From positions 826,572 through 890,571 of the forward strand of contig NZ_CP047945.1 of the NCBI RefSeq assembly GCF_014279795.1: DNA of 64,000 nt, read 5' to 3'. The position numbers and the translations under genes were made by a program. Positions within the stretch are counted from its first letter, which is position 1, and each line of letters opens with the position of its first letter. The stretch comes from Synechococcus sp. PROS-7-1. Its GTDB lineage: Bacteria > Cyanobacteriota > Cyanobacteriia > PCC-6307 > Cyanobiaceae. The notes beneath the pieces are model-generated. The model worked only from the letters and a program-made list of their open reading frames with translations, did no database searches and had not been told where the DNA came from. This document shows positions 56,058 to 61,236 of this stretch, piece after piece.

Positions 56058-57689
56058 ATGACAGATGCAGGCCCATCGACTCCCAACCCGTCGCATGTGG
56101 TGGTGATCGGCGCGGGGTGGGCCGGCTGGGGTGCCACCAAGGCTCTCTGTGAAGCCGGGGTGCGGGTGACGCTGCTGGATGGGATGGCGGATCCCACGGG
56201 CAGCACACCCCTCACCACCACCAGAGGCAAACCTTTTGAAGCCGGCACTCGCGGGTTCTGGAAGGACTACCCCAACATCAATGCCCTCACCGCTGAGCTG
56301 GGGCTCAGCAATGTGTTCACGGAGTTCACCACCAGCGCCTTCTGGTCACCCGATGGACTGGAGGCCACAGCTCCGGTGTTCGGCGATGCGCTGCGTTGGC
56401 CCAGTCCCATCGGGCAGGTGCTGGCCACCACGACCAATTTCAAACGCCTTCCCGTGGCTGATCGCCTCAGCATTGCCGGGCTCCTCTACGCGATGCTCGA
56501 TCTCAACCGCAGCGACGCGGTGTTCGAGCGCTACGACAACCTCGATGCGCTGACGCTGTTCCGAAGCCTCGGAATCAGTGAGCGGATGATCAACGATTTC
56601 CTCCGTCCCACGCTTCTGGTGGGCTTGTTCAAGCCGCCGGAGGACTTGTCGGCGGCGGTGACGATGGAGCTTCTTTACTACTACTCCTTTGCCCATCAGG
56701 ATTCCTTCGATGTGCGCTGGATCCGCTCCAGCACCATTGCCGAACAGCTGATTGCCCCCTTGGCGCAGCAGCTGATCGATCGCCATGGTCTGCAGGTGCT
56801 CGGCGGCACGCTGGCCACAGGTTTGAACCTCCATCCAGATACCAAGGCCGTTGCGTCGGTGCAAACCCGTGCTGTGGCGACGGGTGAAAACGCCATGATC
56901 GACGGAGTGGATGCGGTGGTGCTCACGGTGGGTGCCAAGGGGATGGGCGCACTGATGGCACAGTCGCCAGCCTGTGCCGCTGCAGCCCCTGAACTGGTGG
57001 ATGCCGGCAGTCTCGGGGCCATTGACGTGGTGTCGGTGCGGTTGTGGCTGGACGCCTACGTGGAGGTTGCGGATCCCGCCAATGTGTTCTCCCGATTCGA
57101 GGCCTTGCAGGGGGCTGGTGGCACCTTCTTCATGCTCGATCAGCTGCAGCAGCAGACGGAAGCTGCGCTGTGGGGGGGAGAGCCACCGCGGGGATCAGTG
57201 ATCGCCAGTGACTTCTACAACGCCACAGCGATTGCGGCTCTGAGCGATGAAGCGATCGTGGCGTTGTTGATGCGTGAGCTCCTGCCGGTGGCCAATCCCG
57301 CCTTTCACACCGCCAATGTGCTGGAGGCTGAGGTGCGCCGCTACCCGGGGTCGGTGGCTTGGTTCTCTCCAGGGAGCTTCCGGAAGCGGCCGCCGTTGGA
57401 GACGGCGATTCCTTCACTGGTCTGCGCCGGCGACTGGGTACGAATGGGGGCGCGGGAATTTGGTGCCAAAGGGCTTTGCCAGGAGCGGGCCTATGTGTGT
57501 GGGCTGGAAGCTGCCAATTCCTTGCTGCGACGGGGGGTGGTGCGAAGCGCCGATCCTGGCGGCAGGGCTCAGCACCGGGTGATTGCGATCCGGCCCGATG
57601 AACCCCAGGTGCTGCTGGGGCGCTCACTCAATGCCCAGGTGATGAACACGGCGGACGCCTTGGGCTTGCGTTGGCCCTGGTTGGCATAA
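56058..57689 (+). CDS. Carotenoid-type FAD-dependent oxidoreductase
   Basis: The 543-residue protein opens HVVVIGAGWAGWGATKALCE, an FAD Rossmann motif, with KPFEAGTRGFWKDYPNINAL soon after. This resembles plant and cyanobacterial phytoene-desaturase-like or carotenoid-isomerase-like proteins. The C-terminal part has LVCAGDWVRMGAREFGAKGLCQE and a helix. It is divergent from ggt with 40 bp between, and is the first gene of the same-strand run with the tyrosinase, 65 bp upstream. The substrate is unknown. Confidence 0.85.
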   Translation: MTDAGPSTPNPSHVVVIGAGWAGWGATKALCEAGVRVTLLDGMADPTGSTPLTTTRGKPFEAGTRGFWKDYPNINALTAELGLSNVFTEFTTSAFWSPDGLEATAPVFGDALRWPSPIGQVLATTTNFKRLPVADRLSIAGLLYAMLDLNRSDAVFERYDNLDALTLFRSLGISERMINDFLRPTLLVGLFKPPEDLSAAVTMELLYYYSFAHQDSFDVRWIRSSTIAEQLIAPLAQQLIDRHGLQVLGGTLATGLNLHPDTKAVASVQTRAVATGENAMIDGVDAVVLTVGAKGMGALMAQSPACAAAAPELVDAGSLGAIDVVSVRLWLDAYVEVADPANVFSRFEALQGAGGTFFMLDQLQQQTEAALWGGEPPRGSVIASDFYNATAIAALSDEAIVALLMRELLPVANPAFHTANVLEAEVRRYPGSVAWFSPGSFRKRPPLETAIPSLVCAGDWVRMGAREFGAKGLCQERAYVCGLEAANSLLRRGVVRSADPGGRAQHRVIAIRPDEPQVLLGRSLNAQVMNTADALGLRWPWLA

Positions 57690-57754: not shown

Positions 57755-60265
57755 GTGAATTTCGCGCAACTTCTGTCCAGGTTTGCAGAGCCTGAAAGCC
57801 GCAGTCTTGAAACTTCGAATTCAGAACGGGTGCGTCACAATGTTGAGACGCCAGATGGAGCAAAGGCGCTTGCTCTGTTTGAGAAAGCTGTCGGGTTGAT
57901 GAAGGAGAAGTCGGCTCTGAATCCAGGTGACCCACTGGGGTGGACCTACCAGGCTGGGATTCATGGTCTCTGGAATCTGGATGTTGAACAACCAGAGGCA
58001 TTTAATGTTCAACAAAGCGAGAGATTTGTCGATTTTGCTGTAGAGAATGGATTTGATACCCGCGAAAATATGTTGAATGGAGATACGGTTCTTAATAACT
58101 GCACTCACTTCGCTGGTTTTTGGAATGGCTCTCGGAATTCGATTGTGCAAAGAACGACAGTCAGTGACGGAGCTCCTGCTAATTTCATGGCCTGGCATCG
58201 CTTGTATCTTCAGTATTTTGAGGAAATCGCCAGGGAAAATCTGCGGCTGAGCGGTGATCCTGATGCGGAAACATGGGCTCTTCCCTACTGGGCTTACTTA
58301 AACGAAGAGCAGACAGTGATGCCCAAGCTTCTTCGTGATCCAGAGTCGTCGTTGTATACCCCATACCGCAATCCCGGCTTCAATGCAGGGACGTCAATCA
58401 ATGATCTTGGCGTTGGAGACATACAACCTGCATCCTGGTCTAGCACGGCTTTAAAGGGTTTGGGTGCAACTGGTTACTTGTCAATGGGAACACGGATTGA
58501 ATATACCCCACACAATCAATTTCATCGGTTGTCTGGGTTGGATGGAGGCCTTTTCCCTGATGGAGATGGTCTGATGTTGCCCCCAGGGTCAGCCGCTTTC
58601 GATCCTGTTTTCTGGATCCATCATTCATTTATTGACAAAATCTGGAGCGCCTATAATAAGAAAGACAATGCTTTTTATGCATTTGAGTATGAATTTGACC
58701 AAACACCCTGGAACTATGCTTTTCTGACGCCTTCGCGAGATGGCAGTCTTCAAAAGGACGTGGTGTCGTCTTGGGGTGATGACTCGCCGAATGTCATCAG
58801 TAAAATCTACAATCCCGATTATTCGTACGACTATTTCGGAGCGCTTTCTAATCCTGTTGATGAAGCGGGTCCCAACAAAGTTCTGTCCATCCTTCAGTCT
58901 CCAGCGTTCCGGCCGATCGTCTCTGATATTGATTGGGGTATCGACGCCGAGGCGCGGTCAGCTGTTGTTCAAGACGGTCGTGAGCTGAGTTATTTTCAGT
59001 CGGTTATTCCCCTGACGATTGACGGACGCCAGCTGACCTACGAAGCCTATAGAGGTTTCGCTGGGGAAGATGCACCCTTTAATCTTGTCGCCAATATCAA
59101 TTTCAAGTTGCCCTCTCCGCCAGCCTTTGCAAGATTTGTGTTGACGACTAAAGATATTGTGGAGGATGTGTCGTTCGAGGAGATTACATTCTTCGATATC
59201 ATTAGACGAAACCGTGGTCTGTTCGTTCAGGATATGCCGATGGGCTCCATGTCGATGCCAATGGCTAAAACTGCAACGATGGATTTTGGATATAGTGATT
59301 ATTCTTTCTTTGGTAATCCTAATATCGACACTGATGATCTCGTTGCTCCTGGTGATGAGATGGTCCTGCTGATGCTTTCCGATTCTGCTGACACTTCTGT
59401 GCAGTCTTTGTCGTTGGGGTTAACGGAAAATCTCAACAAAGCCTCAACCCGGGATTCGGATTTTGATTCTGCAGCCTATTTCTCTCAGTTCCCCGAGTTG
59501 CTGTTGAACCGTGAGGCAACCGAAGATCCAGAAGGGTATTACAACGCGAATGACAAGCCTCGCGGTGTGGTGGCTCCCGAAGTTAATTTCCGCGCCGCCG
59601 CTCTTGGCATGGCTTATCTCGCGGAAAATCCCGATTTGATCGAGCAATTGGAGAGTTCTTCTCCCTATGTGGCCGTTGCTGATTATCTCGATCAAGGCCT
59701 TAAGCAAGGGCGCTCACTCGGTGATGGGGCTTTGCGTTCTTCTCGGAACTATTTTCGCCGCGATCGTGAGTCGGATGCCGTGATTCTTGATCTCACATTG
59801 TTGCCTTTGGATGGTGAAGCAGTGGTGGATGTGGTGACAGGGCGTGAAGCTGATTTCGACTCGACGCTTGGTTTTTATCGCGTTGTTGATGATCTTGGCA
59901 CGGTCGTGGTTGATGGAGTTCGTTATCAACCGGGTCACGCGGACTATGCGCGCATGGCAACCAGTAACGGCAATCGATTCGATCCGCTCACTGGTTTCAG
60001 TGCCAGTCAAGAGCGTGCAGAGCGCAGCACGGGGATTGGGTTGACTGCGGATACAGGCCGACTCGCCCCCTTTGCTGTTGTGAACGATCAAACATTGTTC
60101 ACTTTCGCGGAGGCCAATGCAGACGGGCTTAACCATTTTCGTGTTCTCGCGCCCAATACACTCGGCTTTGAAGATTTCTTTGCTGGCGGTGATACCGACT
60201 TTGATGATGCGTTGGCATCCTTCCGTTTCACATTGCCAGGCGCTGATGAATTGCTGTTGGCATGA
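57755..60265 (+). CDS. Tyrosinase/polyphenol-oxidase-like copper protein fused to DUF4114
   Basis: The 836-residue protein has a type-3 copper domain (about 55-330). CuA ligands: His70 (YQAGIH), His118 in NCTHFAGF, His148 in MAWHRLY. CuB: His253 and His257 in TPHNQFHR, and His289/290 in FWIHHSFIDKIW. Cys116-Thr-His118 is the Cys-x-His thioether pair of fungal tyrosinases. After a Met-rich segment (MPMGSMSMPM, 494-503) and a variable region, a DUF4114 domain follows (about 675-830), with GFEDFFAGGDTDFDDA. No signal peptide is seen. The gene is AT-richer than its neighbours; bases 58621-58680 have only 19 G/C of 60. Start is GTG. Confidence 0.85.
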   Translation: MNFAQLLSRFAEPESRSLETSNSERVRHNVETPDGAKALALFEKAVGLMKEKSALNPGDPLGWTYQAGIHGLWNLDVEQPEAFNVQQSERFVDFAVENGFDTRENMLNGDTVLNNCTHFAGFWNGSRNSIVQRTTVSDGAPANFMAWHRLYLQYFEEIARENLRLSGDPDAETWALPYWAYLNEEQTVMPKLLRDPESSLYTPYRNPGFNAGTSINDLGVGDIQPASWSSTALKGLGATGYLSMGTRIEYTPHNQFHRLSGLDGGLFPDGDGLMLPPGSAAFDPVFWIHHSFIDKIWSAYNKKDNAFYAFEYEFDQTPWNYAFLTPSRDGSLQKDVVSSWGDDSPNVISKIYNPDYSYDYFGALSNPVDEAGPNKVLSILQSPAFRPIVSDIDWGIDAEARSAVVQDGRELSYFQSVIPLTIDGRQLTYEAYRGFAGEDAPFNLVANINFKLPSPPAFARFVLTTKDIVEDVSFEEITFFDIIRRNRGLFVQDMPMGSMSMPMAKTATMDFGYSDYSFFGNPNIDTDDLVAPGDEMVLLMLSDSADTSVQSLSLGLTENLNKASTRDSDFDSAAYFSQFPELLLNREATEDPEGYYNANDKPRGVVAPEVNFRAAALGMAYLAENPDLIEQLESSSPYVAVADYLDQGLKQGRSLGDGALRSSRNYFRRDRESDAVILDLTLLPLDGEAVVDVVTGREADFDSTLGFYRVVDDLGTVVVDGVRYQPGHADYARMATSNGNRFDPLTGFSASQERAERSTGIGLTADTGRLAPFAVVNDQTLFTFAEANADGLNHFRVLAPNTLGFEDFFAGGDTDFDDALASFRFTLPGADELLLA

Positions 60266-61236
60266 AGCGGATCCTGATCACCGGGGCTAGTTCCGGCATT
60301 GGCTTGGACGCCGCCCGCCGGTTGGTCTCCAGTGGTCATCAACTCACGCTCCTCTGCCGCAGCTCTGAGCGCGGCCAGCAGACGCACGCGCAATTGGTCG
60401 CAGCCGGTGCAACGCCCGGTCAGGTGACCTGCCTCGTTGCCGATCTGGCCGACCTGCGCAGTGTGCAGAGTGCCTGCGATCAGCTGCTGGATCGGGGTGA
60501 AGCCTTCGACGCTCTGGTGCTGAATGCCGGGCAGCAACGGGCGGGGGTCTCAGCGCCGGTGTGGTCGTCTCAGGGCATCGAAATCACCTTTGCTGTGAAT
60601 CAGCTGGCCCACCAGCTGATCGCCACGGACTTGCTGCCGTTGTTGCGGGCTGGATCGCAGCCGCGGGTGGTGATCACCGCCTCTGATGTGCACAACCCTG
60701 CCACTGGCGGCGGGCGCGTGGGACAACCGGCGGATCTGGGTGACTTGGCAGGACTGCGGGCCGGTGCCGGTTTTGTGATGCTGGATGGCAACGCCCGTTT
60801 TGATGGCGACAAGGCTTACAAAGACAGCAAACTCTGCAATGTGTTGCTGGGGCTTGAACTCAACCGCCAGCTCGCGGGCGCCCTGCCTGTGCTCACCTGG
60901 AGCCCGGGGTTGGTGATCCAGCGCAGCCGTGAGGGTTTCTTCCGCTACAACCGCCAGAGCAATCCTGTGGGGATGGCGTTGTTCGCGTTGGTGGCGCGCG
61001 ATCTGCTGCGGGTGACGGAATCGGTTGCAACGGCTGGCGGTTTGCTGGCGGATCTGATCACAGACTCTGCCTACGCTTCCCCTGGATTCAGCTACTGGAG
61101 CAACCGGTTGGTGCGCCCCGGCATGCATCGTTTTTCTGCCGTTCAGACCAGTGCTGCGGCAGCCGATCTGGCCAAGGCTGGTGAGCTGTGGCGTCTCTCG
61201 GAGGCGTTGATCCGCACGGCGTTGGCGCCACACTGA
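60262..61236 (+). CDS. SDR related to light-dependent protochlorophyllide reductase
   Basis: The 324-residue SDR has the motif RILITGASSGIGLDAARRLV, LVLNAGQQRAG, and the active site FDGDKAYKDSKLCNVLLGLEL. YKDSKLCN is the hallmark of the POR/retinol-dehydrogenase branch, and SPGLVIQRSREGFF follows. It lacks the Cys-rich features that would prove POR, so the substrate could be a different pigment or phenolic. ATG 60262 overlaps the tyrosinase stop by 4 bp, so the two proteins are co-translated. Confidence 0.88.
   Translation: MKRILITGASSGIGLDAARRLVSSGHQLTLLCRSSERGQQTHAQLVAAGATPGQVTCLVADLADLRSVQSACDQLLDRGEAFDALVLNAGQQRAGVSAPVWSSQGIEITFAVNQLAHQLIATDLLPLLRAGSQPRVVITASDVHNPATGGGRVGQPADLGDLAGLRAGAGFVMLDGNARFDGDKAYKDSKLCNVLLGLELNRQLAGALPVLTWSPGLVIQRSREGFFRYNRQSNPVGMALFALVARDLLRVTESVATAGGLLADLITDSAYASPGFSYWSNRLVRPGMHRFSAVQTSAAAADLAKAGELWRLSEALIRTALAPH

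Follow-up and report, generated by a model that had tools for sequence, protein, structure and literature searches.

Close to the right end of a 64,000-nucleotide stretch of Synechococcus sp. PROS-7-1 (contig NZ_CP047945.1, positions 826,572 to 890,571; hereafter the window), we find an open reading frame (ORF) whose product joins a tyrosinase-like core to a DUF4114-like C-terminal tail. A first reading of this DNA, made without database searches (the sequence-only reading), had proposed a type-3 copper domain, a DUF4114 tail, the lack of a signal peptide and an unusual fusion layout, and all four proposals held. A Pfam search matched PF00264 (Tyrosinase) at E=1.4e-18 (68.5 bits against a cut-off of 22.6), and every ligand histidine is present. 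The match to DUF4114 (PF13448, residues 778-824) is borderline, with E=1.8e-5 and 26.0 bits in hmmscan, slightly below the 27-bit cut-off, and 29.9 bits, above it, in a genome search; the homologue from genome G265 scores 28.2 bits. A leader hidden upstream is impossible, since the codons ahead of the start read AGT-TGA-GCT-GTG, and so contain an in-frame stop (TGA) two codons short of the GTG. Nor is the N-terminus hydrophobic: over the first 45 residues the maximum 14-residue Kyte-Doolittle mean is 0.21, compared with 1.61-2.47 in five leader-bearing controls. This is the sole tyrosinase ORF found in the 2.57-Mb single-contig genome, and the literature searched contained no description of a cyanobacterial or DUF4114-fused tyrosinase. 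The combination of tyrosinase and DUF4114 is confirmed as a real observation, far beyond chance.

The gene is a precise, low-GC, single-gene insertion between two conserved genes (Table 1). The order GGT, flavin adenine dinucleotide (FAD) oxidoreductase, short-chain dehydrogenase (SDR) and thiamine pyrophosphate (TPP) enzyme is common to genomes G246, G204 and G231, with protein identities of 88-92% for GGT and 80-97% for the other three. In these genomes the tyrosinase is absent and 13 bp, stop included, separate the last FAD oxidoreductase codon from the SDR start; in the window genome the tyrosinase gene occupies that gap. Its GC content at third codon positions is 0.476, as against 0.734-0.753 in four flanking genes. 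Three of the 31 genomes of the genus carry the gene. In G265 and in the close relative Synechococcus sp. AG-679-A04 it lies elsewhere: the window's flanking genes were not found nearby (9 and 12 kb), and the SDR homologues of both genomes are located away from their tyrosinase genes. The surroundings of the gene yielded no long repeat, and the insertion alone says nothing of mechanism. Phage origin was considered and rejected, as neither the profile of the tyrosinase clade described below nor the tail found a relative in viral contigs, and there was no PHROG match. A sporadic distribution and low GC might also be seen in a decaying or non-functional island gene. We consider this very improbable: the 836-residue frame is intact, and its ligands are preserved in all nine homologues aligned as well as in a protein of another species, 73% identical and encoded at a different locus.

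Table 1. Features of the tyrosinase locus (positions in the window)
Feature	Position	Strand	Basis and remarks
Whole ORF	57755..60265	+	GTG start, 836 aa; tyrosinase core, Met-rich middle region, helical segment, DUF4114-like tail
Tyrosinase-like core, residues ~1-360	57755..58834	+	PF00264; kept in four clade members
CuA ligand 1, His70	57962..57964	+	Alignments
Cys116-Thr117-His118	58100..58108	+	Putative thioether Cys and CuA ligand 2; sole Cys of the protein; alignments
Extended loop between CuA ligands 2 and 3, residues 119-147 (29 residues)	58109..58195	+	Canonical spacing 8 (PMC11608171)
CuA ligand 3, His148, WHR motif	58196..58198	+	Alignments
CuB ligands His253 and His257 (HxxxH); Asn254 at HisB1+1; putative water keeper Glu249 just upstream	58511..58525	+	Alignment; roles after PMC11608171
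His289-His290, third CuB ligand and conserved 'seventh' histidine	58619..58624	+	Alignments
Middle domain, residues 373-565; candidate active-site lid	58871..59449	+	Conserved in 5/5 clade members; no Pfam match
Methionine-rich loop, residues 494-509, 6 Met	59234..59281	+	Shuffle test
Repeat-like segment, residues 570-657	59462..59725	+	Last segment of both G064 homologues
DUF4114-like C-terminal module, residues 672-826	59768..60232	+	10 residues short of stop; Pfam and genome search
GTTGGCAT, left junction of insertion	57680..57687	+	Junction comparison
GTTGGCAT, right junction of insertion	60256..60263	+	Overlaps SDR start codon; junction comparison
FAD oxidoreductase gene (Amino_oxidase), left flank	56058..57689	+	Conserved in relatives without insert
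SDR gene, right flank	60262..61236	+	Start overlaps tyrosinase stop (ATGA); ORF, Pfam and comparison
DUF1254-DUF1214 protein with same kind of DUF4114 tail, 925 aa	62948..64000	-	Extends past window end; Pfam, genome search

In an alignment of nine cyanobacterial homologues, the window protein included, each sequence has the residues equivalent to H70, H118, H148, H253, H257, the H289-H290 pair and C116. Across a wider set of 30 bacterial tyrosinase rows the six ligand columns hold histidine in 29, the exception being G780s, with Arg at the second CuA histidine. The copper site as assigned by these alignments is a predicted one. The first CuB histidine (HisB1) has Asn254 directly after it and Glu249 four residues ahead; the assignment of Glu249 as a putative water keeper is our own. 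In one review residues such as Asn at HisB1+1 and an upstream Glu are tied, not strictly, to tyrosinase activity (PMC11608171).

The enlarged CuA loop breaks the motif rule by which the family is described, H-Xn-H-X8-H (PMC11608171). The second and third CuA histidines (HisA2 and HisA3, H118 and H148) are separated by X29, and the five members of the clade to which the protein belongs show X29, X29, X30, X32 and X31, so that all fall within X29-X32. Their loop, which starts immediately after the putative thioether histidine, is 21-24 residues longer than X8. The canonical spacing is seen in 22 of the 30 rows, the exceptions being the five clade members, G624 (X24) and one protein each from Bradyrhizobium (X15) and Sinorhizobium (X12). 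Because spacings of X12, X15 and X24 also occur, we regard X29 as a variant and not as a sign that the protein falls outside the type-3 copper family. The loop does, however, favour another explanation, namely that the protein is an exported type-3 copper oxidase without tyrosinase activity, either a catechol or o-aminophenol oxidase or an enzyme whose narrow range is set by the CuA loop. Substrate choice in the o-aminophenol oxidases of actinobacteria is thought to be altered by loops inserted close to the active site, though at another place (PMC12982950). Arg258, at HisB2+1, points the same way, since the review links a positive residue there with catechol oxidases; against this, the nearest relative, L039, has Leu at that position, and the pair Asn254 and Glu249 is linked in the review with monophenolase activity (PMC11608171). 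In the G265 homologue HisB1+1 is Gly and the water-keeper position is occupied by Asn, which suggests that catalysis may differ inside the clade and again fits an activity other than that of a tyrosinase. On balance we think such an oxidase rather unlikely.

Cys116 is the single cysteine among the 836 residues; three of the four clade mates likewise have one cysteine, at the same position, and the fourth has three. The sequence-only reading had singled out Cys116-Thr-His118 as fungal-type. The motif is indeed present and aligns in 9 of 9 cyanobacterial homologues, but the fungal emphasis was misplaced: Cys-X-His is found in 24 of the 30 bacterial rows, the six without it forming the short cyanobacterial class. 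According to the review, characterised bacterial tyrosinases with a C-terminal domain all have the thioether, PvdP excepted (PMC11608171), and the enzyme of Verrucomicrobium spinosum (vsTyr) is a solved bacterial example (PMC10526336). Taken together, these observations make Cys-X-His a general mark of long tyrosinases. An IQ-TREE phylogeny of the same rows, which were hand-picked and include 10 of 24 plasmid records, united the window protein, L039, the G265 protein and two copies from G064 in one clade with support of 99/99, placed among cyanobacterial and proteobacterial Cys-X-His rows. G624 stands next to it (91/92) on a long branch, so that its placement is unsure. This tree covers the bacterial part of the proposed comparison with bacterial and fungal members, and a remote eukaryotic link may exist beyond it. 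On these sequence comparisons the window protein belongs with the long tyrosinases of bacterial type, its CuA loop being altered.

The core is followed by a conserved region of about 190 residues carrying a methionine-rich loop, DMPMGSMSMPMAKTATMD. This loop is the densest Met stretch in all five clade members. Among 1000 shuffles, 0 were equally dense for the window protein, 2 for L039, and 4 and 10 for the G064 copies; for G265 the figure was 264, so its Met stretch is not exceptional. A Pfam search of the window protein gave no match in this middle domain, which we infer to be a lid, the Met-rich loop acting as copper loader. The segment beyond it (565-659) was considered as a widespread exoprotein repeat, but of 61 genomes searched only the window's own contained it, which does not support that idea.

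The tail has a far wider distribution. Of 300 genomes of the family, 54 match the window protein, nearly all at residues 672-826 only, and in 27 of 27 loci (one best locus per genome, covering 27 of the 54 genomes with a match) the match ends 2-11 residues ahead of the stop. Its cargoes comprise subtilase, DUF1254/DUF1214, beta-helix, DUF4347 with LVIVD, leucine-rich repeat (LRR), FG-GAP with cadherin, and RTX-repeat proteins; of eight tail-bearing proteins scanned, two have RTX calcium-binding repeats and one DUF4347. In 16 of 18 tail-bearing ORFs, drawn from 25 loci by a motif filter that left the remainder, the window locus L003 included, uncounted, the N-terminus is less hydrophobic than in the leader controls. 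The other two, L058 (1.90) and L067 (1.87), are as hydrophobic as the controls, possibly because of a wrong start. Cysteine makes up 0.23% of tail-bearing proteins (37 of 16351 residues in 17 proteins, 15 of them from 20 loci plus L037 and the DUF1254 ORF of L038), against 0.89% (18 of 2026) in the products of four flanking genes, a small control. Compared by sequence with solved structures, the tail gave no match at E<=1. A putative type I export of the window protein would agree with the terminal tail, the leaderless N-termini and the scarcity of cysteine. The genome does encode an HlyD (TIGR01843) above the curated cut-off at C1:1617656-1618828, beside two ABC-transporter-like ORFs identified by eye, and HlyD exceeds the cut-off in 36 of the 300 genomes. 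Leaderless exoproteins (chitinases) have been detected by proteomics in marine Synechococcus (PMC4949707). The routes by which these bacteria export leaderless proteins are not yet established, and a module lying 2-11 residues short of the stop in subtilase, LRR, DUF4347 and tyrosinase proteins offers a concrete candidate export signal. The missing leader would also suit a cytoplasmic enzyme in which the tail is regulatory or neutral, and some phenol oxidases are indeed cytoplasmic. The cytoplasm, however, keeps copper low, the tail is carried by subtilase, beta-helix, LRR, FG-GAP/cadherin and RTX proteins, which are typical of the cell exterior, and tail-bearing proteins are poor in cysteine; we therefore hold a cytoplasmic location to be improbable.

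We favour, with a probability of roughly 0.55, the reading that the gene encodes an exported, probably latent tyrosinase-type phenol oxidase that was acquired horizontally as a single-gene cassette. A secreted oxidase carried as a mobile cassette is likely because the gene looks foreign and its tail is terminal on unrelated, probably exported proteins. The protein would leave the cell without a leader, the DUF4114-like tail serving as a C-terminal export or surface-retention module. Its core would bind two coppers either extracellularly or at the cell surface, the Met-rich loop helping to deliver Cu(I). Upon first activation of O2 the single cysteine would form a thioether to His118, and the middle domain would shield the site until removed or displaced. 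The active form might then oxidise phenolic substrates (peptidyl tyrosine, tyramine, dissolved phenolics) and so produce quinones able to darken or cross-link material close by. All that is said here of activity, thioether, latency, export route and copper loading is inferred from sequence. If true, the presence of such an oxidase outside the cells of a phototroph abundant in the ocean would bear on how a surface layer is built or hardened, or on how dissolved phenolics are acted upon.

Several results, the residues of the G265 homologue among them, weigh against this reading. AlphaFold models had a mean predicted local distance difference test (pLDDT) score of 28.0 with a two-row alignment and 31.7 with eight rows, and a Foldseek search with the latter model returned 0 matches at E<=0.001, which so poor a model would lead one to expect. 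The middle domain is about the right size for a C-terminal jelly-roll lid of the vsTyr or latent polyphenol oxidase (PPO) type; homology to DUF7868/PPO lids found no support, hhalign against the C-terminal parts of other long tyrosinases giving E=0.088 and a probability of 0.6%. Hahella HcTyr1 (8B74) has Cys76/His78 yet no thioether in the crystal (PMC11609597), so the motif alone is not proof of the bond. As for export, both G064 homologues are without the DUF4114 tail, no HlyD above the cut-off was found in G064 or in G265, which has the same fusion, Pfam found no RTX repeats in the window protein, and no type I secretion system (T1SS) genes were seen among the flanking genes scanned. RTX repeats are usual in type I substrates, although not obligatory. 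Over the 300 genomes HlyD and the tail share 8 genomes against 6.5 expected (P=0.31), and dependence on a T1SS is thus unsupported by co-occurrence.

That HlyD does not follow the tail across genomes agrees with a different role for the tail, that of an adhesion or surface anchor, export proceeding by some other, unrecognised signal. At about 155 residues the tail is long for a bare secretion signal, and DUF4114 turns up in paper listings with PilY1 pilus-tip proteins and Acanthamoeba. Its strictly terminal position, 27 of 27 times, is nonetheless what a C-terminal signal would show, and we rate an anchor as a substantial possibility, somewhat short of even odds. A broader form of the favoured reading, that of an exported oxidase, is more tentative and to our minds doubtful as a whole: the tail would be a lineage-wide, swappable export or surface tag of picocyanobacteria on single-gene cassettes at fixed sites, the tyrosinase cargo would load its own copper via a Met-rich lid, as an intramolecular counterpart of the Streptomyces caddie, and the enlarged CuA loop would define a new subgroup.

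A second tailed gene lies nearby. Less than 3 kb farther on, between the TPP enzyme and an iron-containing alcohol dehydrogenase (Fe-ADH), is a DUF1254/DUF1214/DUF4114 protein, at a site that is empty in G204 and G231. In G246 the TPP/Fe-ADH site holds another DUF1254/DUF1214 DUF4114-tailed protein in the opposite direction (L103:7443-10493, +), and this genome retains the apparent first codons of the opposite-orientation DUF1254/DUF1214 gene. The window genome has five DUF4114 matches, and three lie within 8.05 kb, a clustering that uniform placement yields in 0.025% of trials; the strongest of the five, at 42.4 bits, is at G000:C1:953663-953860, within a 1773-aa open frame.

Comparison with known systems shows likenesses to several, each partial. 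Molluscan haemocyanins (8TRZ, 3J32, 6R83), which are type-3 copper proteins, gave the highest summed PDB scores, but these totals add together repeated units, of which each one shown scores <25 bits, and unlike the window protein they are animal oxygen carriers. The PDB entries 8BBQ and 8BBR, named 'Core tyrosinase', we take to be vsTyr. The latter is bacterial and shares Cys-X-His and a C-terminal extension with the window protein; it has a Cys84/His86 thioether, its extension acts as a lid and there is no caddie, and it differs in having a Tat (twin-arginine) leader, about 500 aa, no DUF4114 tail and no Met-rich loop described (PMC10526336). HcTyr1, the best-scoring single-domain solved match of the core (91.3 bits), also has Cys-X-His and a C-terminal domain; it differs, besides its thioether-free crystal (PMC11609597), in its 466 aa, its X8 spacing as aligned here and its lack of a DUF4114 tail. 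Other leaderless picocyanobacterial proteins (subtilase L037, DUF1254 L038, LRR L057 and DUF4347/LVIVD L054) carry the same module up to the stop on unrelated cargo. PF00264 occurs in 29 of 368 cyanobacterial genomes. In three of them (G746, G853 and G765) a short-class tyrosinase lies inside large SWM_repeat proteins, four in all (L141-L144; frames of 2768, 1595, 1676 and 796 aa), with FG-GAP repeats in three, DUF4347 in two, and two cut at the start by a contig end. Here too tyrosinase is the cargo of a large exoprotein-like architecture, although the core is without Cys-X-His, the motif has the form NPxHxxxxFxxWHR and DUF4114 is absent. Because these fusions occur in three other genomes, tyrosinase as exoprotein-like cargo seems to be of multiple origin.

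Some further observations concern the neighbours of tyrosinase genes. In G064, one of the two tyrosinase homologues is followed about 0.2 kb downstream on the same strand by a gene (L033:6901-9267, +) for a tyrosine-decarboxylase-like protein of 788 aa, in which a pyridoxal decarboxylase domain is combined with a tyrosine-decarboxylase C-terminal domain and EF-hands; it would supply tyramine, possibly making a tyrosine-tyramine-dopamine pair, in this single case. On the rhizobial plasmids L148, L152 and L154 the tyrosinase gene is beside or near one for a subtilase-type peptidase or, in L154 (975 aa, with an S8 peptidase annotation), fused to it; peptidases of this kind might switch on an enzyme made in latent form. 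Ten distinct contigs of a viral collection (L157-L167, IMG/VR), possibly host DNA, carry a tyrosinase-like gene, and the six proteins read have a twin-arginine-like N-terminus. A DUF2182 gene directly follows the tyrosinase gene on four plasmids from three proteobacterial orders (L149, L150, L151 and L156), forming a recurrent pair. Finally, in G742 (L146:3008-6716) a tyrosinase-like ORF with Cys-Glu-His is followed by an apparent multicopper oxidase.

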